NCBI GenBank assembly: GCA_026932145.1
Contig: JAIXKT010000032.1
Span: 1-57,107, forward strand
Source of the DNA: Bacteroidia bacterium
GTDB lineage: Bacteria; Bacteroidota; Bacteroidia; J057; JAIXKT01
Length of the DNA: 57,107 nt
Reading direction: 5' to 3'
Every line of letters begins with the position of its first letter. Within the stretch, counting starts at the first letter, position 1. Positions 2,777 to 57,020 of this stretch are shown one piece after another. Below the pieces are notes generated by a model, which worked only from the letters and a program-made list of their open reading frames with translations, did no database searches and had not been told where the DNA came from. The position numbers and the translations under genes are program-made.

Positions 2777-3619
2777 TTACCAATTGCTATCTTTTTCGTA
2801 ACCATATAGTTCTAATAAATCTTGGATAGTTTCTTTGAAGGCATTTTTGTGCTCCGGTTTTAATGTTTCTCGCCATACGTTAATTTGCCCTTTTCGGAAT
2901 GTGGAACTATTGGTAGAAAATGTATTTTTAGCAATTTGCTGAATTTGACTTTCTGATAAAGGTATATTCAAGTGGTTTGCAACTTGCTGGATAGCTGTTA
3001 GTTGTTTTTTTTCGTCTCCGCCTCCGTCTGCTCCCACTAAATCTTCAAATCTAACGATAAGCGTATTTGAGTCGTGAAACCAACCGGCAAAGTTCAGTAA
3101 TAAATCTCTGATAGGTTCTACCTGTTTTTTTTCGCCATAGATGGTTGCTAACAATCTGGCATTATCATCGGGTAAAGATTTAAAGAATTCATGGGCGCGG
3201 TGGGCTTTGTCTATATGGGTTACATATTTTTCATGAGAGATACAGACATCACGTGGGTCTCTGATAACCAATAAATTGCGTATTTGGCAGCGGTGGATAG
3301 CTTCCGCAACTTTGGGGGAATAGTTTACGTGCGCAGGTGCATATTGCCCCCAAGAAAGGCTTTCTATTTTGGCAATCAAGTGTGCTTCCGACTTAAATTT
3401 ATGGGTAGATATGGTGATGTCTCCGTGGTGGCGAAGCAGAGGAAAATAGCTCAAAGCTGTTTCTAAAAGGTTGGTGCCGGATTTAGGGAGAGAGTTCATC
3501 AACACTTTTGGCCCGATAAATCGCCCCTTCATTGCAGATGGTTGTAATCCAGCCCAAGTAACTGAAATATATTTCTTTAAGTAATGGCGATATTTGTCCC
3601 AAACTGTTTCGGTTTTCAT
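2777..3619 (-). CDS. PAPS-dependent sulfotransferase family protein
   Basis: This 280-residue protein should transfer a sulfuryl group from PAPS to an acceptor. The 5'-phosphosulfate loop is NSLPKSGTNLLE (about residues 43-54). The 3'-phosphate site is VIRDPRDVCIS (about 118-128), and the C-terminal RKGQINVWRE matches the RKG...W motif of cytosolic-type sulfotransferases. There is no signal peptide. The acceptor is unknown. Two further sulfotransferases of a different subtype and a glycosyltransferase follow at 4.9-7.6 kb, so a surface glycan is a reasonable guess. The start codon abuts dispersed repeat copy A, whose CAAAAGTA box (3691-3698) is the only promoter candidate and would give a leader of about 65 bases. 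Confidence 0.87.
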   Translation of the reverse strand: MKTETVWDKYRHYLKKYISVTWAGLQPSAMKGRFIGPKVLMNSLPKSGTNLLETALSYFPLLRHHGDITISTHKFKSEAHLIAKIESLSWGQYAPAHVNYSPKVAEAIHRCQIRNLLVIRDPRDVCISHEKYVTHIDKAHRAHEFFKSLPDDNARLLATIYGEKKQVEPIRDLLLNFAGWFHDSNTLIVRFEDLVGADGGGDEKKQLTAIQQVANHLNIPLSESQIQQIAKNTFSTNSSTFRKGQINVWRETLKPEHKNAFKETIQDLLELYGYEKDSNW

Positions 3620-3718
3620 ATTTGGTTGTGGTTCAGAAAGTATAACAAAGAGATTGGCAAAAAGATTTACTTACCTTCATTGCCAAAGCGCAAAAGTATC
3701 CAAAAATAACAGACTCTA
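3619..3718 (-). repeat. Dispersed intergenic repeat, copy A (partial)
   Basis: It begins at the sulfotransferase start codon with GGTTGTGGTTCAGAAAGTAT, the family end sequence, and continues through TTGCCAAAGCGCAAAAGTAT, the most conserved internal block. That block is shared with copies at 12.95, 17.15, 30.15 and 50.2 kb. The distal half of the family element is missing. CAAAAGTA at 3691-3698 is a minus-strand TAnnTTTG promoter box. Confidence 0.75.
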
Positions 3719-3737
3719 ATACTGTTACGCTGTAATT

Positions 3738-4715
3738 CTAATTTTTGATGATTTTTTGATGATACTGCCGTCCGGTTTTTGTTTTAATCACCGCATAATA
3801 AAGTCCGGGAGCTAAAGATTGGATGTTTATAGGAAAATCAGCCGCTTTACAGACAAAATTTCCGGACAATTGATATAAGCAAATTTCGTGAATTGCGGGT
3901 TCATTTGATAGCCACAAGTAGTCTGTGGCAGGGTTCGGAAAAAGTACTATTGAGTTAAGAGATAGTTCATCCAGATAATTTTCTAAGTTTTGGTGTATTA
4001 CTCCAACTGCGTCTAAATCAAAGCCTCCGGATTCAAAATTTGTAGGATAAGGGTCATTGATTGGGTGGCCGTTTTGGTCATAAGAAGCGAATCTTTGGTC
4101 AATACTTCCCACAACGTCTATGATTTTTACGTGGGTAATGGAATTTTTATCAAGATTTTGATAATTAGGGAGTTCTGCTAAGTCAAAAGGAGTTCCGTAA
4201 TTGGCGCGGTATTTTCCGGCGAGATTATGGAGTTTGGTAGCATCATTAGAGTCGTCAAAAGTGGCTATTTGGGTTTGAGTTTGGGTATTAGAAACTGCCG
4301 GAAATCGGTAAAAGTCTGTGCCGTTACTACTCACTTCTACAAAAGCGAGTTCCAAAAAGCCGTCATTAAAAGCATTTTCAAAGACGGCAAAATCTGGTCC
4401 GGGGCCATCCATAATCGGATGCTGAAACCTCAAAACTGCCTCGCCTCTATCTCCTAAGCTCACAAAGCCGCTTTCGCCTGCACGCCCAATAGCGTTTGAA
4501 TCTGCACCATAACTCGCAAAACCAGAATCAGGAACGGCAATATCTCTATAACCACGAACCACAGAACACCCAATAGCCCAGTTTACCAAAATAGAACTAT
4601 CTCTATAAATAGCAGTTGTCGTGGGAGAACCTACCGGCCCGGCATACTGAGCCGCTATATCTCCGACTGAAATTACATAAATTAAAATACAACAAATTAA
4701 CCGAAAACCTTTCAT
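3738..4715 (-). CDS. Secreted protein with C-terminal T9SS sorting domain
   Basis: The protein has 325 residues. An N-terminal signal peptide (MKGFRLICCILIYVISVGDIAAQ) is followed by a domain of about 220 residues that I cannot assign to a family (VNWAIGCSVVRGYRDIA, FAVFENAF, AFVEVSSNGTDF, GGFDLDAVGV). The FENAF...VEVSSNG pattern recurs in secreted Bacteroidota proteins, possibly a beta-sandwich. The last ~80 residues form a T9SS type A sorting domain: LFPNPATDYLWL, a central LYQLSGN strand, and LAPGLYYAVIKTKTGRQYHQKIIKN. The protein should cross the outer membrane through T9SS and be released or surface-anchored. It lies between sulfotransferase genes but on its own transcript. No clear promoter box was found upstream. 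Confidence 0.85.
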   Translation of the reverse strand: MKGFRLICCILIYVISVGDIAAQYAGPVGSPTTTAIYRDSSILVNWAIGCSVVRGYRDIAVPDSGFASYGADSNAIGRAGESGFVSLGDRGEAVLRFQHPIMDGPGPDFAVFENAFNDGFLELAFVEVSSNGTDFYRFPAVSNTQTQTQIATFDDSNDATKLHNLAGKYRANYGTPFDLAELPNYQNLDKNSITHVKIIDVVGSIDQRFASYDQNGHPINDPYPTNFESGGFDLDAVGVIHQNLENYLDELSLNSIVLFPNPATDYLWLSNEPAIHEICLYQLSGNFVCKAADFPINIQSLAPGLYYAVIKTKTGRQYHQKIIKN

Positions 4716-4882
4716 TCAATAAATAACTCCGCAAAGTACTGACTTATAAACACAAATACCAAACGCTTATCTATCGAAACAAAATATATTGCAATAAAAT
4801 GATAATCAATAAATTAAATCAGTTTTTTTATTATTTAACGGATAAAACCGACTATGCTCTCAAAAGCTACCTCAGTTTTTTA

Positions 4883-4890
4883 TACCTTTG
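4883..4890 (+). promoter_or_regulatory. -7 box for the second sulfotransferase gene
   Basis: TACCTTTG matches TAnnTTTG. It falls inside the longest frame (from 4854), so the true start is the ATG at 4908, about 12 bases past the expected transcription start. Confidence 0.6.
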
Positions 4891-4907
4891 CAAAATCTGG
4901 TAGATAC

Positions 4908-5807
4908 ATGGCTGTTTTTCATAGGTTTCCAAGTTTTATGTGTATCGGTGCGCAAAAAGCAGGGACAACCAGTTTACAAGACGCATTGGTTCAGCATCCA
5001 CAAATTTTTTTACCCAAAGTTAAGGAAACCCACTTTTTTGTTCGAGAAGATAGATTTTCATTGGGTTTTGAAGATTATCAACAGCGTTATTTTGGTGAGG
5101 CAAGTACCAACCAGATTATTGGAGAAATTGACCCTGAATATCTATTTTTTCCGATTGCAGCACCCAGAATCAAACAATATTTGGGTGAAAATTTAAAGTT
5201 TATCATTATTCTGCGGGAGCCGGTTTCGCGGGCTTTTTCTCATTATCAAATGAGCCAACGGCGTGGCTTAGAAACCTTAGACTTCAAAACAGCTATTTTG
5301 CAAGAACCAGAACGAACCCTTACAGATACAGGATTCCGCCATTTTTCATATATATCACGCAGCCAATATCTGAAACAAATAAAAGCATTTCAGGCTCATT
5401 TTCCCAATGCTCAATTTTTGTTTTTGCTCTTTGAGCAAGATATTCAGCAGAGCTTGAATAAAACCCTTACCAAAATAACCGATTTTTTAGGAATATCCAG
5501 TTTTTCTATTCAAGAAGATATAGTCAGCAACCCAGCCTCTACACCAAGATTTGCGTTTTTGCGAAATATGATTTATGATAAACAAAATCCATTACGCAAA
5601 CTTATTGGAAAACTGATTCCACGTAAATACAAACTACAAATTGCTCAAACTGCCGATTCGTTAAACCAAAAAAAATTAACTCATTCCATAAAGATAGATG
5701 CTGAACTCAAAGAACATATTTTTAATCAATATTTTTTAGCAGAAATACCTGAGTTAGAAAAACTTACAAACCTCAATCTATCTATTTGGCTGCCTAAAAA
5801 TGTATGA
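4908..5807 (+). CDS. Sulfotransferase domain protein (heparan sulfotransferase-like)
   Basis: The protein has 299 residues from the ATG at 4908 (MAVFHRFPSFMCIGAQKAGT). The 5'-PSB loop CIGAQKAGTTSL lies near the N-terminus. The 3'-phosphate motif IIILREPVSRAFSHYQM follows about 100 residues later, and HPQIFLPKVKETHFF is typical of the Sulfotransfer_1/NDST-like group that modifies sugars. The start at 4854 was rejected because a TACCTTTG box lies downstream of it and the extra residues have no family match. The gene overlaps the next sulfotransferase by 4 bases and a GT2 gene follows 4 bases later, so the three form one operon. The likely role is sulfation of a surface or exported glycan; the acceptor cannot be read from sequence. 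Confidence 0.87.
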   Translation: MAVFHRFPSFMCIGAQKAGTTSLQDALVQHPQIFLPKVKETHFFVREDRFSLGFEDYQQRYFGEASTNQIIGEIDPEYLFFPIAAPRIKQYLGENLKFIIILREPVSRAFSHYQMSQRRGLETLDFKTAILQEPERTLTDTGFRHFSYISRSQYLKQIKAFQAHFPNAQFLFLLFEQDIQQSLNKTLTKITDFLGISSFSIQEDIVSNPASTPRFAFLRNMIYDKQNPLRKLIGKLIPRKYKLQIAQTADSLNQKKLTHSIKIDAELKEHIFNQYFLAEIPELEKLTNLNLSIWLPKNV

Positions 5808-6697
5808 AAAAACCAAATTTTGTGGTTATCGGAGCACCTAAATCCGGAACAACCTCTTTATTTTATTACCTGCACCAACATCCGGACATTTATCTGCCCA
5901 CCAAAAAGGAGCTGCATTATTTTTCATATCCATTTATCAAACAAACCTTGAATGGCCCGGGAGATGATCTGGTTTTAGCCGGCTTATGTGCAGATTTAGA
6001 AAGCTATCTTTCTCATTATAAGGCTGTAAAAAACCAAAAAAGAATTGGCGAAGTTTCTCCATCTTATTTACTTTATGATGAAGCGCGGCATAATATCAAA
6101 TCCGAGTTAGGGGATGATGTTAAAATCATCGCTATCTTACGGAATCCGGTTCAAAAAGCCTATTCTCAGTATATGCACATGGTTCGTGAGCAGCATGAAA
6201 CCGAAACCTTTATGCGTGGCTTAGAATTAGAACCACAACGAGTAGCAGCAGGCTGGTGGGATATGTGGCTCTATGCCTCTTCATCTCGTTATGCCTCACA
6301 TTTACAAAGATATTATGACACCTTCAAAAAAGAACAAATCTTAGTACTTATCTTTGAAGACTTTATGTTAGATACGCCTGCCGCTATGAAGATAGTTTTC
6401 AAGTTTCTGGATATAGACGATACGGTATTCATTGATACAGAGCAGATTTACAACCGTACTGGCGAATCCAAAGTAAAAGAAATCTCCACTTTTTTAAATC
6501 ATCCGTCTTCGATAAAGTCCTTTTTTAAGAAAATCATACCGGATAAGATTCGCCTACAGTTTAGAGAACAGATTATGCGCTGGAATACAGGAAAAAAACC
6601 GGCTATTGACCCTAAGGCAGAAGCATTTCTGAATCAATACTTTAAAGAAGATATTCAAGCTGTTTCAGACTTACTTGGCAGAAAACTCCCTTGGTAA
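5804..6697 (+). CDS. Sulfotransferase domain protein, second gene of the operon
   Basis: This 297-residue paralogue of the preceding gene has a 5'-PSB loop FVVIGAPKSGTTSLFYYL at residues 6-23. HPDIYLPTKKELHYFS follows it, and the 3'-phosphate site is IIAILRNPVQKAYSQYMHM (about residues 108-126). The start ATG overlaps the upstream stop (ATGA), which implies translational coupling. Two related but diverged sulfotransferases in tandem usually act on different hydroxyl or amino positions of one glycan; that is inference here. There is no signal peptide or membrane segment, so it should act in the cytoplasm before export of the acceptor. Confidence 0.87.
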   Translation: MKKPNFVVIGAPKSGTTSLFYYLHQHPDIYLPTKKELHYFSYPFIKQTLNGPGDDLVLAGLCADLESYLSHYKAVKNQKRIGEVSPSYLLYDEARHNIKSELGDDVKIIAILRNPVQKAYSQYMHMVREQHETETFMRGLELEPQRVAAGWWDMWLYASSSRYASHLQRYYDTFKKEQILVLIFEDFMLDTPAAMKIVFKFLDIDDTVFIDTEQIYNRTGESKVKEISTFLNHPSSIKSFFKKIIPDKIRLQFREQIMRWNTGKKPAIDPKAEAFLNQYFKEDIQAVSDLLGRKLPW

Positions 6698-6701
6698 TCT
6701 C

Positions 6702-7589
6702 ATGGAAACCTCAATTCCTACACTTTCTATATTAATCGTTAATTACAATGGCAAAGAAGTCATAACCAATTGTCTTGCTTCTATTCGTGATAACCTAACT
6801 ATTTCTCATGAAGTTATAGTGATAGACAACCTATCTACGGACGGCAGCCCTGCTTTAATTCAAAATAACTTTCCGGATGTTCATTTAGTAGAAAACAACG
6901 AAAATACGGGTTTTGCACGCGCAAACAATCAGGCTGCCAAACTCGCAACCGGTAAATACCTACTGCTGTTAAACAATGACACTATTTTGTTAGATGACAT
7001 CAAGCCGATGATTGATTATTTCGAGAAAAACCCAACAGTAGGAGCAATCGGCATCAAGATGCTGGGAAAAGATATGGAATACAGAAAATCCGCAGGCCAT
7101 TTTCCAGAACCCCTTCGATTAATCAAAATATCCAGTATATACAAAAATAATCAATATTTTAACACTGGGAACTTTCCACAAAGCACTGATAATTACAGCG
7201 TTGATTGGGTAGAAGGCTCTTTTTTAAGTACTCCCCGTGAACTTTGGGGTCAGCTTAGGGGGCTTGATGAAGGATATTTCATGTATGTTGAAGATATTGA
7301 CTATTGCAAAAAAGTTCAAGTAGCCGGCCTACAAACCCGTTTCTACCCAGCCTTGCGTTATCAGCATCTTGGTGGCTATAATCAAGGCCGTTTTGACCTG
7401 ATTGTCAAAGGGTTCAGAAGGTTTCATCAAAACTTTTCCGGCTATGGAACAAGATTATTGGCCAACACTATCCTGACAATCGGACTCTGGCTTAGGCTTG
7501 CACTAAGCTCTATTTTGTATCTAATTACCCGAAAAAAACATCACTTAGAACGCAGAAACGTTTGCCTAAAAGCACTCCGCAGCCGATAA
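6702..7589 (+). CDS. Family 2 glycosyltransferase (rhamnosyltransferase-like)
   Basis: The protein has 295 residues from the ATG at 6702 (METSIPTLSILIVNYNGKE), 4 bases after the sulfotransferase stop; a TTG at 6675 inside that gene is less likely. The GT-A fold is clear: LSILIVNYNG, VIDNLSTDGS, NTGFARANNQA, the metal-binding LLNNDT, and the acceptor-side block DWVEGSFLSTPRELW followed by GYFMYVEDIDYCKKV. This resembles the WbbL/RfbF rhamnosyltransferase subgroup, but the sugar cannot be fixed. A hydrophobic C-terminal stretch (LLANTILTIGLWLRLALSSI) may attach it to the inner membrane. With two upstream sulfotransferases it probably builds and sulfates the same glycan. Confidence 0.87.
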   Translation: METSIPTLSILIVNYNGKEVITNCLASIRDNLTISHEVIVIDNLSTDGSPALIQNNFPDVHLVENNENTGFARANNQAAKLATGKYLLLLNNDTILLDDIKPMIDYFEKNPTVGAIGIKMLGKDMEYRKSAGHFPEPLRLIKISSIYKNNQYFNTGNFPQSTDNYSVDWVEGSFLSTPRELWGQLRGLDEGYFMYVEDIDYCKKVQVAGLQTRFYPALRYQHLGGYNQGRFDLIVKGFRRFHQNFSGYGTRLLANTILTIGLWLRLALSSILYLITRKKHHLERRNVCLKALRSR

Positions 7590-20399: not shown

Positions 20400-22178
20400 T
20401 CACTTTTTTTGATTTCTCATAAGTTCCTCAGCATGAACCAATAGCGTAGCTGCACCGCCATAAGTTTTGGTAATGTTTTCAGAAGTCATAGTCGTCTTTA
20501 CCGGCCCTGCAGCCACAATCCGTTTGTTTATCAAAATCACTTCATCAAAATATTCTTCTACCTTGCTGATGTCATGATGAATCATGATTATTAATTTTCC
20601 ACTTTCAGCTAACTCTTTGAATAGTTGCATCATTTTGATTTCGGTAGCTGCATCAACGCCCGTAAAAGGTTCGTCTAAGAAGAACACATCGGCTTGCTGG
20701 CAAATTGCCCTTGCCATAAATGTGCGTTGCAGTTGCCCGCCAGATAGCTCAGAAACCCTGAAATCTGCTAACTGCTTGATTTCTAAGAGATCCATTGCCT
20801 TTTCAATACGCGATATTTCGGTTTTGGGAATGGTTTCAAAAACTTTTTTGCCGGGATACAACCCCATTTTAACAACATCTCTTACGGTTACCGGAAACTG
20901 AATATCTACTTCGTCTTTTTGGGGCAAATAAGCGATATAACGTAGCATTGTAGAAAGTGGTTTTCCATATAGCGAAATTGTACCTTTTTGGATAGGCACA
21001 ATTCCCAAAACAGCTTTTAAAAAGGTGGATTTCCCAGAACCGTTTGCACCCAAAATCCCATAAATTTTACCTGTATAAAGTTCTAACGAACAGTTAGTTA
21101 GTATCATTCTTCCGGAATAACCTACGGATAAATTTTGGATTGTTATTTTCTTTTCAGCATTAGAATCCGGCGTTGAACTTCTTTTTAATATCAACTTTGT
21201 TAACAGCCAAAAGGCAGCTATAAAAGAGGTTAAGACTACTATAAATAATGCGTTATCTATTGGAAATTTGCGTGTTTGTGTTCTGGAAGAGGTTAGTCCG
21301 GCAACGATTCTTTTGGTATTTTCTGCTAACATTCCGATGTAAGAATCTGCTCCTGAGCCGGTTTCTCCCATAGAATCAGCATACAATTTATCTCCCAGAG
21401 TTAGGCCATAGTCAGCGGCAATTTGAGCTAATGCCTTAGGGTTGGTCGTAGCCTCTACAAAGACAGCCGGTACATTACTCGTTGAAATTTCTGCTATTAA
21501 GGATTCCATTCCAGAAACAGCAATTTCGGCATCAGTAGAAGTGCCTATTAAAGTTCTAACACTTAAACCATAATGGCTTGCATAATATCGAAATGCATCA
21601 TGGGTCGTGATTAAGGTTCGATTTTCAGGAGGTATTTTTTGAATTTCTTGGCGAATCCAAAAATCTAAACTATCTAACTGATGTTTGTATGTGATGAAAC
21701 GATTCTCAAAATAGGCTGTTTTCTGCGGTAAAAGTTGGGTAAATGCTTCTGTAATAGCTTGTGCATATAAAATTCCATTTTGAGGAGACATCCACGCATG
21801 TGGGTCTGTTGCGTTATGAATATCTGTGTTTTCTATGGGCTTAACATACCGGCTAACGGTAATTACCTTACCGGAAACATTTGCACTTACAATTAGTTTT
21901 TTAATCCAACCTTCTAATGTTAAGCCGTTTATCAAAATCAGGTCGGCATTTCCCAACGTTATTGCATCTCTTGGAATTGGGTCGTAGATGTGTGGGTCTG
22001 TGCCGGTAGGCAATAACGATTGAACTACAATTTCGTCCCCGGCGATTTGGCGGGCTATATCACTGATAATATTAATTGTGGCAACAACGTTTTTTTTATC
22101 GTTTTGGCAAAACCCTAAAAATGGTGATATAATGATTACGAATATGTTGAATATAATTTTCTTTTTGAAGCTATCCAC
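20400..22178 (-). CDS. Fused metal-binding protein and ABC ATPase (ZnuA-ZnuC-like)
   Basis: One 592-residue chain joins two normally separate proteins. Residues 1-25 are a signal peptide or anchor. Residues 30-295 are a cluster A-I (zinc/manganese) substrate-binding domain with likely ligands H63 (TDPHIYDP), H127 (DPHAWMS), H193 (TTHDAFRYY) and E242 or D268. Residues 309-331 form one membrane segment. Residues 344-590 are an ATPase with Walker A GANGSGKST (377-385), Q-loop Q420, LSGGQ (478-482), Walker B FFLDEP and the H-loop HH (534-535). The topology is consistent: binding domain outside, ATPase inside. No ZnuB-type permease is in the window, and the His-rich loop of high-affinity zinc SBPs is missing. 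There is no stop or frame change at the junction. A CAAAGCTA box at 22193-22200 gives a very short leader. Confidence 0.88.
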   Translation of the reverse strand: MDSFKKKIIFNIFVIIISPFLGFCQNDKKNVVATINIISDIARQIAGDEIVVQSLLPTGTDPHIYDPIPRDAITLGNADLILINGLTLEGWIKKLIVSANVSGKVITVSRYVKPIENTDIHNATDPHAWMSPQNGILYAQAITEAFTQLLPQKTAYFENRFITYKHQLDSLDFWIRQEIQKIPPENRTLITTHDAFRYYASHYGLSVRTLIGTSTDAEIAVSGMESLIAEISTSNVPAVFVEATTNPKALAQIAADYGLTLGDKLYADSMGETGSGADSYIGMLAENTKRIVAGLTSSRTQTRKFPIDNALFIVVLTSFIAAFWLLTKLILKRSSTPDSNAEKKITIQNLSVGYSGRMILTNCSLELYTGKIYGILGANGSGKSTFLKAVLGIVPIQKGTISLYGKPLSTMLRYIAYLPQKDEVDIQFPVTVRDVVKMGLYPGKKVFETIPKTEISRIEKAMDLLEIKQLADFRVSELSGGQLQRTFMARAICQQADVFFLDEPFTGVDAATEIKMMQLFKELAESGKLIIMIHHDISKVEEYFDEVILINKRIVAAGPVKTTMTSENITKTYGGAATLLVHAEELMRNQKK

Positions 22179-22192
22179 AAACTCAGTTTTGG

Positions 22193-22200
22193 CAAAGCTA
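22193..22200 (-). promoter_or_regulatory. -7 box for the metal transporter fusion gene
   Basis: On the minus strand this reads TAGCTTTG, an exact TAnnTTTG match 15 bases ahead of the start codon. Confidence 0.5.
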
Positions 22201-22330
22201 CAAAAAAAGGTAAATCATGCTAAAAACGTAGCAATATCAGGTTCAAGGATAAAATGTTCTGGTTGATTTCTAACAGTAGTTGTTTTTAACGATATTTGTA
22301 AAACTGGGAGAGTAGCAATCTTTTCGCAAT

Positions 22331-22825
22331 ATGATTTCTTTTAAGTCTGCAATAATTTGGCTGATTTTATGGGTCAGTTTTACTTCAGGGTTTGCCCAAA
22401 GAGTTCGAGTTTTGCCAATTGATTCAATATTAAGCCGCGTTAATCGTCATTCAGATACCACTTGGGTGCTAAACTTTTGGGCTACTTGGTGTAAGCCTTG
22501 TGTGGCAGAACTCTGGGATTTTAACAACTTTCACACACACAATCAAGATAAGCCAATACGGGTTTTATTGCTTTCTGTTGATAATCAAGATGCTGCATTT
22601 TCTCGTGTAGAGCCTTTTATACAGAAGAGAAAAATTTCTGCTGAAGTATTAGTTGTGCAAGAAACGAACCCAAATTTATGGATGGATAAAATTGACCCTA
22701 AATGGTCAGGCTCTATTCCTTCAACGTTATTTATTGCAGCAAAGACCCAAAAACGACTTTTTAAGGAACAAAGTTTTGATGAGATAGAACTGAATGACAC
22801 CGTATTTCCGATGCTGTCTCCGTAA
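22331..22825 (+). CDS. Secreted thioredoxin-like protein (TlpA/ResA type)
   Basis: The protein has 164 residues. The signal peptide (MISFKSAIIWLILWVSFTSGFAQ) is followed by a thioredoxin fold with the active site NFWATWCKPCVAELWDF (WCKPC). RVLLLSVDNQD and the cis-proline strand SGSIPSTLFI follow. The protein should act in the periplasm as a thiol reductant or disulfide handler, for example in cytochrome or metalloprotein maturation. The CKPC site and a central insertion between the second strand and helix place it with TlpA/ResA. It is divergent from the metal transporter fusion, with about 150 bases between starts. No cytochrome maturation genes are adjacent. Confidence 0.87.
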   Translation: MISFKSAIIWLILWVSFTSGFAQRVRVLPIDSILSRVNRHSDTTWVLNFWATWCKPCVAELWDFNNFHTHNQDKPIRVLLLSVDNQDAAFSRVEPFIQKRKISAEVLVVQETNPNLWMDKIDPKWSGSIPSTLFIAAKTQKRLFKEQSFDEIELNDTVFPMLSP

Positions 22826-37821: not shown

Positions 37822-38421
37822 ATGAAAGCAACGGACTTCGATTTTTCCAAAGATTTAAAGCTTTCCATAGAAACGGGTATTGCTTCTTTTAGGAGTACAC
37901 GTTTAGCAATGTTTGATGTAGAGGCTATTGGCTTACTTCGCAAGCTATTAATAGACGAACTTGGTATGGAAAGAGCCCGGCAATTGTTCCTTCGATTTGG
38001 CTACCAATGCGGCTATGCCGACTTTATCCAGATGAAAATAAACTATACCTTTGAAACCGAAATGGATTTATTGGCATCAGGACCTGTTATACACACTTGG
38101 GAAGGGATTGTAAGAGCAACCCCAACAGAAATTCGTTTTAATAGAGATACAGGGGAGTTTTATTTTACCGGAGTATGGGCAAACTCCTATGAGGCAGAAC
38201 AACACATTGCTTTTTGTGGGCACTCTAAAGAAGTATCTTGTTGGAGTTTAATGGGATACGCCTCTGGGTGGTGCTCGGCTTTTTTCGGAAGCAAATTAGT
38301 TGCGATTGAGCCAGTTTGCGCTTGCAAAGGCGATGCTAACTGTGGTTGGGAAATAAAACCAGAAGGCGAATGGGGCGATATTGCTAAACCCTATATTGAG
38401 GCATTTAAAATATTTAGCTAA
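37822..38421 (+). CDS. Stand-alone XylR N-terminal/V4R sensor domain protein
   Basis: This 199-residue protein is made only of the sensor half of XylR/DmpR-type regulators. Residues 20-100 resemble the XylR_N fold (STRLAMFDVEAIGLLRKLLIDELGMERARQLFLRFGYQCGYADF) and 100-180 the V4R domain. The zinc ligands known in DmpR (Cys155, Glu178, Cys181, Cys189, as I recall) have counterparts at the same spacing: C140, E163, C166 and C174. The AAA+ ATPase and HTH that normally follow are absent, and the gene ends cleanly at 38421. So it may bind an aromatic or other small ligand and signal by protein contact. A 63-residue partner gene follows 21 bases later. The domain call is good; the function is unknown. 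Confidence 0.82.
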   Translation: MKATDFDFSKDLKLSIETGIASFRSTRLAMFDVEAIGLLRKLLIDELGMERARQLFLRFGYQCGYADFIQMKINYTFETEMDLLASGPVIHTWEGIVRATPTEIRFNRDTGEFYFTGVWANSYEAEQHIAFCGHSKEVSCWSLMGYASGWCSAFFGSKLVAIEPVCACKGDANCGWEIKPEGEWGDIAKPYIEAFKIFS

Positions 38422-41422: not shown

Positions 41423-44400
41423 TTACAAAATCTGCCTCCAATTTGCCCCATCACTCTGTAACATAACACTGGAATTTATCGGCACATTACCAACAAAAGC
41501 ACCTGTGAGATTGAAATAATTGGTAATAGCTATCGGGCCTGCTGCTTGATTTACGATAACGTAAATTCTACCCTGGCAGGTATTGGCTATGGGGAGGTTC
41601 AAAGCACCCAGAATACCTGTTTTTATTACCGTAAAATAGGTATCATCTAAATTAATTGTTCCTACTCCTACAACAACAATAGGTAGTGAGAAGGATCCAT
41701 TGTTATGGAGGGTGGAACTTGGGTTATTTGTGCCTATACCTACACTACCGGCATTAGGAGGAACAATGATGGCATAATTACCGGTAGTGGCACCGCTTGC
41801 CCCAAAATATCCGGCTATGTTTTTTCCTGCGGTAGCACCGACTACAGAATTATAGGAACCATAAGCGGTAGCCGCAGTCGTTGAATTAACACTGGTGCGT
41901 ACGCCAAAAGCAGAAACAGTACCTCCAGAAACGCTTATGTCTAAACCACGTGTAGAATTTGCTGTATTTCCGAGAGCAAGTATAGATGCCGCAGTTACTC
42001 CACCTGTACCTGAACTTGTAGTGGCGGATATATCGGCACCGTATTTGGGCTCCGAACCGTCAGACGAAGCGTGAGCAAATAATGCAGAAGTACCTACGGG
42101 TGTCCCCGGTGAAGACCCACCTTGAATATTCCTTACGAACAACGAAGGTGTGCTGTTGTTTACATTATTAGAAGCAAAATAAGCATTGCCAAGTAAATGT
42201 AATGGGTTGGTAGGTACGGCCGTGCCGATACCTACCCTTCCGGCATCATCAACGATAAAGGCTGTTGTGCCGTTATCCCGCACCTCAAAATCTCCGGTAG
42301 AAGATAAGTTAAAAATAGTGTTGCTGCCACCGCTGTTTTCAAAAGTCAAGCTATTAGAACCTTGGGTTAGTGTTGTATTTGTTGTTAGGTTGCCTCCTAA
42401 GCGCACATCAAAGCCGGATAGCGTTAATCCGTTGCTGGCCGTAGTGGATTCTCCAGTCGGTAAAGATGTCCACGTTAAGCCCCCGAAGCCGTCATTCTTT
42501 AAATAGGTATTAGCACCGCCTTGGGTGGCCGGAAAATTGGTAGGTACGTCGTTTATTTTAACGACATTACCGGTAGCATTCACTTGAAATTTTTCTGCTA
42601 CTGAAAACGTTTGGCTTGGTGCAGTAGTGCCTATCCCTACGTTTGTATTTGCCGTAGCTCCGTTTTGGCCGTTTATGCTGCCTAATACCATACTGTTGTC
42701 GGTAGTTACATAAGCTTTTGCTCCGATAGCTGTGGCGTTGGTTAAGTTATTGCTGCCTACATCGGCATTACGTCCTAAAGCGGTATTGTAATTTCCGGTA
42801 GTATTGCTAAGAAGTGAACTATCTCCTATTGCTGTGTTATAGCTTCCGGAGTTACTGTTAATCATTGCGTTATAGCCTAAGCTGCTGTTACCTATTCCGG
42901 TTGTATTGTTGAAGAGACTACCATTACCCATAGCCACATTTCGAGATCCTGAGCTGTTGTTATTCATTGTTCCAAGACCTATTGCCGTATTTTCGCTTCC
43001 GTCCACATTTGAGTATAGCGCCCATGCACCCAGAGCTGTATTGGAAATACCAATTGTATTTAATGATAATGATCGTAATCCAACGGCTGTGTTGTTATTA
43101 CCGCTTGTATTTGAGAGCATTGAGCGCTGTCCCAATGCTGTATTGTTAGCACCCGTGGTATTAGCATTAAGAGACAAGCTGCCTACTGCCGTATTGTTAT
43201 TTGCCGTAGTGTTATTTTGTAATGCCTGATAGCCTACAGATGTGTTATTAATACCGGTTGTATTGTTAGATAATGCCTGATAGCCGATAGCATTGTTATT
43301 AGTTCCGTTAGTGTTAGCTTGTCCTGCATTAGTGCCAATAAACACATTAAATCGGTCTGTGCCATTATTTTGGTTTTGTCCGGCGTTTTCGCCTAGGAAT
43401 ACGGATTGTGCGCTATTTAAGACTTCAATTTGGCCTTTTGTAGTAAACCGGAAGCGATCTGTATTGTTGTTTTTTATCAGGATCGGTTTGTTATCTGTAG
43501 TTCCTATAAAGTGTGTTCCTGGAATTGTGCCGGCATTGCCGGTTAAATTCCATTCATTGCCGCCGGATGGTGCCCAGCTGAGATTTCCGGAGCCGTCATT
43601 TTTTAAATAAGTATTGGCACCGCCTTGGATAGCCGGAAAACTAGTAGGTACGTCGTTTATTTTAACGACATTACCATTAATATCTACTTGAAATTTCTCT
43701 ACGACAGAAAACGGCTGAGTAGGTGCAGTAGTCCCTATGCCTACCTTAGTATTTGCCGTAGCTCCGTTTTGGCCGTTTATGCTGCCCAGCACCATGCTGT
43801 TATTAGCTGTTACATAGGCTCTTGACCCAATAGCCGTAGCATTGGTTAAGTTATTGTTACCTACATCGGCAAAATACCCTAACGCACTGTTATTGCTGCC
43901 GGTGGCATTGGTAAGTAAAGTGCTATCGCCAAAGGCGGTGTTAAAATTACCTGATGAACTATTGTATAATGAATATTTTCCGTTCCCTGTATTACCGCAC
44001 CCCGTGGTGTTGCTGTATAGCGAATTAAAACCGCTTGCCGTGTTGTTATTACCCGCTGTGTTGTTGGATAGCGATTGATAACCGCTTGCCGTGTTATAGG
44101 TACCCGTGATGTTGTTGTATAGCGACCCTAAACCGCTTACCGTGTTATACCCTCCCGTGGTGTTGCTGTATAGCGATAGATAACCACTCGCTGTGTTGCC
44201 GCTACCCGTGGTGTTATTGTATAGCGAATAATAACCGCTTGCCGTGTTATAACTCCCCGTGGTGTTGCTGTATAGCGATAGATAACCACTTGCCGTGTTA
44301 TACCCCCCCGTGGTGTTGCTGTATAGCGAATTAAAACCGCTTGCCGTGTTATACCCCCCCGTGGTGTTGCGCATTAAAGCTCCATTACCAATGCCTACAT

Positions 44401-45148
44401 TGGTTTTAGCTGTATTCACCAAGCCGGCTCTGTAGCCTAAAAATACGGAACCGGTATCTATGCGCCCGGCTTGCATATTATTGACCTTAAACTTCAAACT
44501 CTTTAGGTCAGTGGTACCTATAAAGTTGATAGAAGTATCTGTGCCGGCATTGCCGGTTAAATTCCAGCTATTGCCGCCGGATGGTGCCCAGCTGAGATTT
44601 CCGCTGCCGTCATTTTTTAAATAAGTATTGGCACCGCCTTGGATAGCCGGAAAATTGGTGGGTACGTCGTTTATTTTAACAATATTACCATTAATATTCA
44701 CTTGAAATTTTTCTGCTACTGAAAACGTTTGGCTTGGTGCAGTAGTGCCTATCCCTACGTTTCCAGTTCCATTTACAAATACACCCTCGTTATCTCCGTC
44801 CCCGCTTAGATAGTTGTTATTTAATGCTATATTTTGGGTAGCTGTATGGTCGCCCAGATTATCTCCGGAACCAGAACTTATATTTATCCATACAGTACCG
44901 TCAAAATATTCAAACTGATTTATATCTGTGTTGAATATCAGCAAGCCGGTTGCCGGAGATGCTATTCCGGATCGGGCTGAAGTGGTCATTCGAGGCACTA
45001 AAATACCCTTATCGCCTGACTGAATATCCAGCATAGCAGAGGCATCAGGGGTGAGTGTGCCAATGCCTACCTGCGCAGATACTTGTATAGCAAAACAAAT
45101 TGACAGCAAAGCAATCTGTAAATACTGTAAAGGAGAGTTGTATTTCAT
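41423..45148 (-). CDS. Very large secreted repeat protein, YadA-head-like
   Basis: The protein has 1241 residues with a signal peptide (YLQIALLSICFAIQVSAQ). The mature start VGIGTLTPDASAMLDIQSGDKGILVPRM is standard for Bacteroidota surface fibre proteins. Two arrays of 17-residue repeats (typical unit NTASGYLSLYSNTTGSY, about 260-430 and 590-850) resemble the left-handed beta-roll of trimeric adhesin heads. Three copies of a ~60-residue cassette (VGIGTTAPSQTFSVAEKF to LKNDGSGNLSWAPSGG) surround them, and each array ends with a block like TNATAIGSRAYVTANNSMVL. The C-terminus (ANTCQGRIYVIVNQAAGPIAI...MLQSDGANWRQIL) lacks a T9SS or membrane-anchor domain. It may assemble as a trimer, possibly as a surface fibre. 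The frame is open throughout. No promoter was found near the start. Confidence 0.87.
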   Translation of the reverse strand: MKYNSPLQYLQIALLSICFAIQVSAQVGIGTLTPDASAMLDIQSGDKGILVPRMTTSARSGIASPATGLLIFNTDINQFEYFDGTVWINISSGSGDNLGDHTATQNIALNNNYLSGDGDNEGVFVNGTGNVGIGTTAPSQTFSVAEKFQVNINGNIVKINDVPTNFPAIQGGANTYLKNDGSGNLSWAPSGGNSWNLTGNAGTDTSINFIGTTDLKSLKFKVNNMQAGRIDTGSVFLGYRAGLVNTAKTNVGIGNGALMRNTTGGYNTASGFNSLYSNTTGGYNTASGYLSLYSNTTGSYNTASGYYSLYNNTTGSGNTASGYLSLYSNTTGGYNTVSGLGSLYNNITGTYNTASGYQSLSNNTAGNNNTASGFNSLYSNTTGCGNTGNGKYSLYNSSSGNFNTAFGDSTLLTNATGSNNSALGYFADVGNNNLTNATAIGSRAYVTANNSMVLGSINGQNGATANTKVGIGTTAPTQPFSVVEKFQVDINGNVVKINDVPTSFPAIQGGANTYLKNDGSGNLSWAPSGGNEWNLTGNAGTIPGTHFIGTTDNKPILIKNNNTDRFRFTTKGQIEVLNSAQSVFLGENAGQNQNNGTDRFNVFIGTNAGQANTNGTNNNAIGYQALSNNTTGINNTSVGYQALQNNTTANNNTAVGSLSLNANTTGANNTALGQRSMLSNTSGNNNTAVGLRSLSLNTIGISNTALGAWALYSNVDGSENTAIGLGTMNNNSSGSRNVAMGNGSLFNNTTGIGNSSLGYNAMINSNSGSYNTAIGDSSLLSNTTGNYNTALGRNADVGSNNLTNATAIGAKAYVTTDNSMVLGSINGQNGATANTNVGIGTTAPSQTFSVAEKFQVNATGNVVKINDVPTNFPATQGGANTYLKNDGFGGLTWTSLPTGESTTASNGLTLSGFDVRLGGNLTTNTTLTQGSNSLTFENSGGSNTIFNLSSTGDFEVRDNGTTAFIVDDAGRVGIGTAVPTNPLHLLGNAYFASNNVNNSTPSLFVRNIQGGSSPGTPVGTSALFAHASSDGSEPKYGADISATTSSGTGGVTAASILALGNTANSTRGLDISVSGGTVSAFGVRTSVNSTTAATAYGSYNSVVGATAGKNIAGYFGASGATTGNYAIIVPPNAGSVGIGTNNPSSTLHNNGSFSLPIVVVGVGTINLDDTYFTVIKTGILGALNLPIANTCQGRIYVIVNQAAGPIAITNYFNLTGAFVGNVPINSSVMLQSDGANWRQIL
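43851..44380 (-). repeat. 51-bp tandem repeats in the adhesin gene
   Basis: About ten tandem units of 51 bp encode 17-residue repeats. The core CCGCTTGCCGTGTTATA on the plus strand recurs with small changes, and some neighbouring units are nearly identical in DNA. Recent duplication or gene conversion is likely, and copy number could change by slippage or recombination. Confidence 0.8.

Positions 45149-50510: not shown

Positions 50511-57020
<6,510 letters not shown>

Follow-up and report, generated by a model that had tools for sequence, protein, structure and literature searches.

The window, a stretch of 57,107 nt, contains a gene that encodes a cluster A-I metal substrate-binding protein (SBP) joined to an ABC ATPase (NBD) through one membrane helix (Table 1), and this SBP-TM-NBD fusion represents a real, conserved architecture. 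The fusion is very probably the subunit that both binds substrate and hydrolyses ATP in a two-polypeptide cluster A-I importer, in which the partner chain is a permease carrying an MntR/DtxR module. As originally predicted, the SBP, helix, and ATPase are encoded in one uninterrupted frame, as the 592 codons contain no internal stop in the ORF list and the two domains are recognized by Pfam; joining them in one chain also fixes the SBP:ATPase ratio at 1:1. A search of open-licence papers turned up no SBP-NBD fusion, which is weak evidence of novelty; as far as these papers show, the architecture is undescribed within a well-known transporter class.

Table 1. Features of the fusion gene and of the encoded protein (positions in the window).
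Feature	Residues	Position	Strand	Remarks
SBP-TM-NBD fusion CDS		20400..22178	-	GTG start; stop codon included; 592 aa
Signal peptide region	1-25	22104..22178	-	Hydrophobic core (N-terminal hydropathy); predicted to export the binding domain
Cluster A-I substrate-binding domain (PF01297)	31-293	21300..22088	-	Pfam and alignment
Single transmembrane helix	309-331	21186..21254	-	AlphaFold2 model and hydropathy; joins periplasmic and cytoplasmic domains
ATPase (NBD)	345-580	20439..21146	-	Pfam, alignment, and AlphaFold2

The PF01297 (ZnuA) profile matched the binding domain at full length (profile positions 1–262 of 263, E = 2.9e-77), and ABC_tran matched residues 360–505 (E = 1.9e-26). AlphaFold2, run on a 13-sequence alignment, placed one helix between two domains (mean pLDDT 84.8), and Foldseek matched the two halves to separate families, i.e., to SBPs (8svc, MntC, 5w57 AztC, 1toa TroA, and PsaA) and to the NBD of PsaBC (7kyp). 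The set of ATPase motifs is complete, as had been proposed, and includes Walker A (GANGSGKST), the Q-loop (Q420), the signature LSGGQ (residues 478–482), Walker B up to E503, and the switch histidine of the H-loop (H534/H535); all five motifs, which together mark a transporter-type ABC ATPase, are invariant or nearly so in the alignment of 13 homologous fusions. The junction between SBP and ATPase, originally placed at a point near codon 335, is the whole stretch of codons 297–344. In 31 of 33 fusions, more positive charge flanks the helix on its C-terminal side than on its N-terminal side; the other two are ties, and the window's protein itself shows such a charge tie and is not clearly positive-inside. 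A convincing lipobox is absent from the signal peptide region (LGFC). A search for a metal-box operator 5′ of the gene (22150–22345) yielded just repeats that are weak and imperfect (77% over a 22-nt stretch), and promoter and terminator matches were no better than those in shuffled sequences. An antisense ORF (20584–20901) was interpreted as a coding-strand shadow. The gene next to the fusion gene, in divergent orientation (22331–22825), encodes a secreted AhpC/TSA-family thioredoxin-like protein, and the 152-bp gap between the two genes would hold both promoters.

A sequencing or assembly error joining two genes is ruled out by the presence of the same fusion in many independent genomes, as a continuous fusion was found in 13 other genomes among 60 relatives (35–46% identity); neither are the genes separate in all relatives, though many Saprospiraceae do have separate genes. 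Within the order, near-full-length matches were found in 12 of 22 genomes, including the window's own, with G015, where the copy is cut by a contig end, as the thirteenth (12 of the 21 others). Sorting of loci by their reading frames gave 41 fused loci (about 33 distinct), 53 loci with separate SBP and ATPase genes, and seven with an SBP only; some of these loci are duplicates of one record. Across 395 genomes of the phylum, no other uninterrupted fusion was found at E 1e-60, the matches being unfused relatives or pairs in one frame that are interrupted by stops; the fusion is thus specific to its lineage. Scanning named genomes with two search motifs, which bias the result toward the fusion's own family branch, gave 80 further loci, mostly from Saprospiraceae, Lewinellaceae, and other Bacteroidota. 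Three loci titled "Sphingomonadales" (L115, L122, and L124) nest among Bacteroidota fusions on short branches; these names seem mistaken, perhaps for Sphingobacteriales. The linkers between SBP and ATPase, including the helix, are mostly 45–63 residues long and in some cases 90–103 residues long and of low complexity (L115 and L140); since linker length varies this strongly, exact spacing seems not to be critical. In L115 (4647–6824) and L140 (4809–6881), long repetitive polar inserts are located between the SBP and the helix (linker ≤103 residues), with ETGSGAQQ-like units in L115.

Split loci of the Saprospiraceae type suggest how the fusion may have originated. The SBP of these loci has a hydrophobic C-terminal end (median hydropathy of 2.54 over 19 residues), and the helix is the C-terminal tail of the SBP in the 46 split loci included in the tree; conventional SBPs of other class members stop at the domain boundary. 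The ATPase gene of split loci often starts 0–8 nt past the SBP stop and, in some of them (e.g., L176, L109, and L110), lies in the frame of the SBP, separated from it by TAA and at most one codon. Programmed stop readthrough was considered for these relatives and rejected; in 12 of 12 junctions the stop is TAA with a start codon next, and ordinary separate genes are the simpler explanation. In a tree of SBP plus ATPase (a quick method with SH-aLRT support only; fewest changes, 4), the window's sequence sits on a long branch within a clade of fusions, and three more fusion groups are nested among split genes. The simplest reading is that an SBP acquired a membrane tail at its C-terminus and that a stop loss then joined it to the ATPase, with the direction from split to fused taken from the outgroup, as parsimony counts alone are insufficient; the fusion appears to have arisen about three more times, in Saprospiraceae. 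The family provides a natural series from a free SBP to a membrane-tailed SBP to an SBP-ATPase fusion, in which the last step is the loss of a stop codon.

A fusion that arose several times, and from which some split loci are separated by so little, is easily reached, and it could represent a neutral accident, i.e., the loss of a stop codon after which the pump works no differently from one whose ATPase is separate from a membrane-tailed SBP. We consider this rather unlikely, as the fusion has been retained in a deep clade with long branches; this clade comprises 27 diverse loci, the fusion is continuous throughout, and no reversion to separate genes was seen inside it. The same continuity, together with the lack of a conserved cleavage motif or internal start at the junction in the 13-fusion alignment, makes it quite improbable that the protein is a precursor, cut between the membrane helix and the ATPase (or supplied with an internal ATPase start) to yield separate working subunits with 1:1 expression as the only consequence; this is despite the many close relatives that use separate genes, the unconserved 13-aa linker past the helix, and the cleavage in vivo of the chlamydial permease-repressor YtgC/YtgR (PMC5599777).

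The permease, expected in the original prediction to be either elsewhere in the genome or absent, is elsewhere. A profile search of the genome identified exactly one ABC-3 permease (PF00950, E = 4.2e-64; C7:358632–359408), which rules out a missing permease and provides the cognate ABC-3 subunit of a cluster A-I importer, and exactly one ZnuA domain, the one within the fusion; the genome assembly comprises 3.48 Mb in 66 contigs, with a completeness score of 100%. Because both genes are well inside their contigs (20 kb into a contig of 57 kb for the fusion, approx. 100 kb into the 463-kb contig C7 for the permease), they are truly apart in this genome, and their pairing here is based on exclusion and phylogeny. 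In all 13 relatives that carry the fusion, the permease gene is directly downstream of the fusion on the same strand, mostly with gaps of −8 to +84 nt (199 nt in G019; an overlap that results from ORF start choice in G016). Moreover, each of 14 fusion genomes contains exactly one strong ABC-3 permease, as compared to two in nine conventional unfused systems, which fits a symmetric 2+2 complex. In the permease tree, the C7 permease groups with permeases of fused systems and away from conventional ones (SH-aLRT 87–93, not starred). Its best PDB match is PsaC, and its residues D44, H48, and D95 are invariant across 20 permeases; these are the counterparts of Asp47, His51, and Asp94 in MntBC-A of B. 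anthracis, a triad whose mutation abolishes Mn import (PMC8487065).

As a permease gene is present elsewhere in the genome, we read the fusion as most likely a working pump in a new layout and not a sensor, with transport presumably carried out by fusion and permease together. Two copies of the fusion and two of the permease-MntR chain, (SBP-TM-NBD)2 + (permease-MntR)2, would assemble around a permease dimer, a 2:2 stoichiometry that we infer. The signal peptide would export the binding domain and the helix would stop transfer, so that the ATPase would remain inside; each ATPase would be positioned under its permease half, with the helix probably packed alongside the permease. Since two ATPases are needed per transporter, two SBPs would be held permanently on the periplasmic side; diffusion away would be impossible for an SBP tied to its ATPase, and metal would be handed over at the periplasmic mouth at very high local concentration and not by diffusion. 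It is a standing question of transport mechanism whether an importer needs its SBP to dock and leave, and this tie to the ATPase makes it testable. The alternative raised in the original prediction, a sensor or regulator without transport in which metal binding outside signals across the helix to the ATPase, matches the topology of many receptors (one membrane helix) and the non-adjacent permease gene in the window's genome, but is highly improbable given that the ATPase retains every catalytic motif of a transporter NBD, that a cognate permease with an intact metal path exists within the fused-system clade and adjoins the fusion in the 13 relatives, and that no signalling output domain or partner gene was seen.

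The predicted metal ligands of the fusion are H63, H127, H193, and D268, i.e., three His and one Asp as is typical of TroA-type cluster A-I SBPs; they are invariant in 13 fusions and match TroA's ligand positions in the alignment. In S. suis TroA, zinc is bound by His76, His139, His205, and Asp289, whereas Glu occupies the third ligand place in PsaA and MntC, which are Mn-specific (PMC3097204); a TroA-type set is thus compatible with Mn, Zn, or Fe. The nearest SBP families are mixed and include one zinc protein (AztC) as well as Mn ones, the match to the AztC equivalog NF040870 (224.5 bits) being below its curated cut-off of 350 bits. ZnuA proper is a weak match (2osv, E = 1.4e-14, vs. 1toa, E = 3.7e-50), and the fusion sequence contains no His-rich stretch, in contrast to ZnuA sensu stricto with its His-rich loop between the N-terminal ligands. 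The label "ZnuA/ZnuC-like" used originally is imprecise; based on the closest solved relatives and the ligands, we replaced "ZnuA" with TroA/AztC-like, and the closest solved relative of the ATPase is PsaB (best PDB match, 40% identity over 230 residues). Mn2+ is the most likely substrate, with Zn2+ and Fe2+ possible, as judged from the ATPase and permease, both of which are nearest to PsaBC, and from the associated regulators, which are of the MntR/DtxR type.

Beyond its transport domain (PF00950, residues 14–272), the C7 permease contains the metal/dimer domain of iron-dependent repressors (PF02742, residues 349–418), and its model shows a winged helix (residues 312–348) and an SH3-like domain (residues 436–496); this is a YtgCR-like layout of an ABC-3 domain followed by a wHTH and a metal-binding dimerisation domain. 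The permease at L043:6594–8090 is fused to a complete MntR/DtxR module with invariant metal ligands and an unconserved recognition helix; conventional class members (L056 and L060) carry such permease fusions too. In matched genomes, the ligands of the permease modules at positions 8, 77, 99, 102, and 103 (D, H, E, E, and H) are invariant; the positions are numbered after B. subtilis MntR, used as a yardstick, and the same ligand positions are supported by an alignment with ScaR. The mean pairwise identity of the recognition region in these genomes is 0.27 among permease modules vs. 0.73 among stand-alone MntR proteins (nine read), as compared to 0.65 vs. 0.78 for the metal and dimer helices; the DNA-binding helix of the permease module thus lacks the conservation found in DtxR-family repressors. 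Invariant ligands next to an unconserved recognition region give the strongest hint that the module may sense metal without reading DNA and act on the transporter. Variation of the recognition helix could also reflect divergent target sites, but not easily, since a single reading helix is retained by the stand-alone MntR of the same genomes.

In MetNI and ModBC, a cytoplasmic regulatory domain could sense how much substrate is inside and halt transport (trans-inhibition); that domain is on the ATPase and has another fold, whereas the module described here is on the permease and its inhibitory role is a proposal. It is possible, though on balance doubtful, that the two chains form an importer hard-wired at both ends, with the SBP tethered to the ATPase and the permease-fused MntR, having lost DNA binding, braking transport allosterically (trans-inhibition) once the cytoplasm is replete with metal. 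If confirmed, a permease-bound MntR with an intact metal site and an unconstrained DNA-reading helix would represent a transcription factor turned transporter gate. A single stand-alone MntR/DtxR was found in the window's genome (L200:354–1037, minus strand; G000:C37 near 65014–65223); it keeps its DNA-reading helix, SPASVTDMLKRL, and has lost primary metal ligands (AERLGYI vs. AEQLEHI in relatives; DPLG for DPHG); sensing and DNA reading may therefore be split between the permease module and this MntR.

The system resembles TroABCD, PsaABC, MntABC, and AztABC in its SBP fold and ligands (TroA/AztC), its NBD (PsaB), and its permease (PsaC) with a D/H/D path; however, these systems have a separate SBP (free or a lipoprotein) and a separate ATPase, in place of one membrane-crossing chain. 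Importers of the GlnPQ/OpuA type also have substrate-binding domains covalently tied to the transporter, with two or more per complex (PMC8025302), but these unrelated type I amino-acid and osmolyte transporters have them fused to the permease (TMD), while here the tie is to the ATPase via an extra helix. TagGH, a Bacillus subtilis exporter, likewise combines an ABC ATPase chain, one membrane helix, and an extracellular domain (PMC11466899); it is a type V exporter and its extracellular domain is not an SBP. In Neisseria, MetQ, as well as other membrane-anchored SBPs, is kept at the inner membrane and is not free in the periplasm (PMC8416018; PMC8025302), but by a lipid anchor and with a separate ATPase. 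Chlamydial YtgC-YtgR, like the C7 permease, is a cluster A-I permease extended at its C-terminus by a DtxR-like domain that keeps its metal ligands; YtgR is cleaved off and binds DNA (PMC5599777), whereas the DNA-reading helix of the C7 module is unconserved, and no SBP-ATPase fusion is reported for the chlamydial system.

Elsewhere in the window, three sulfotransferase-family genes (2777–3619, 4854–5807, and 5804–6697) are located beside a glycosyltransferase-like gene, suggesting a possible sulfated-glycan locus (2777–7589). A 199-aa protein (37822–38421) has XylR_N and V4R matches alone, without the usual activator domains. Two genes encode large surface-type proteins; one (41423–45148; 1241 aa) has SGYxSLYSNTTG-type repeats and no Pfam match, and the other (50511–57020; 2169 aa), with no Pfam match in its first 1163 residues, contains Gly-rich stretches.
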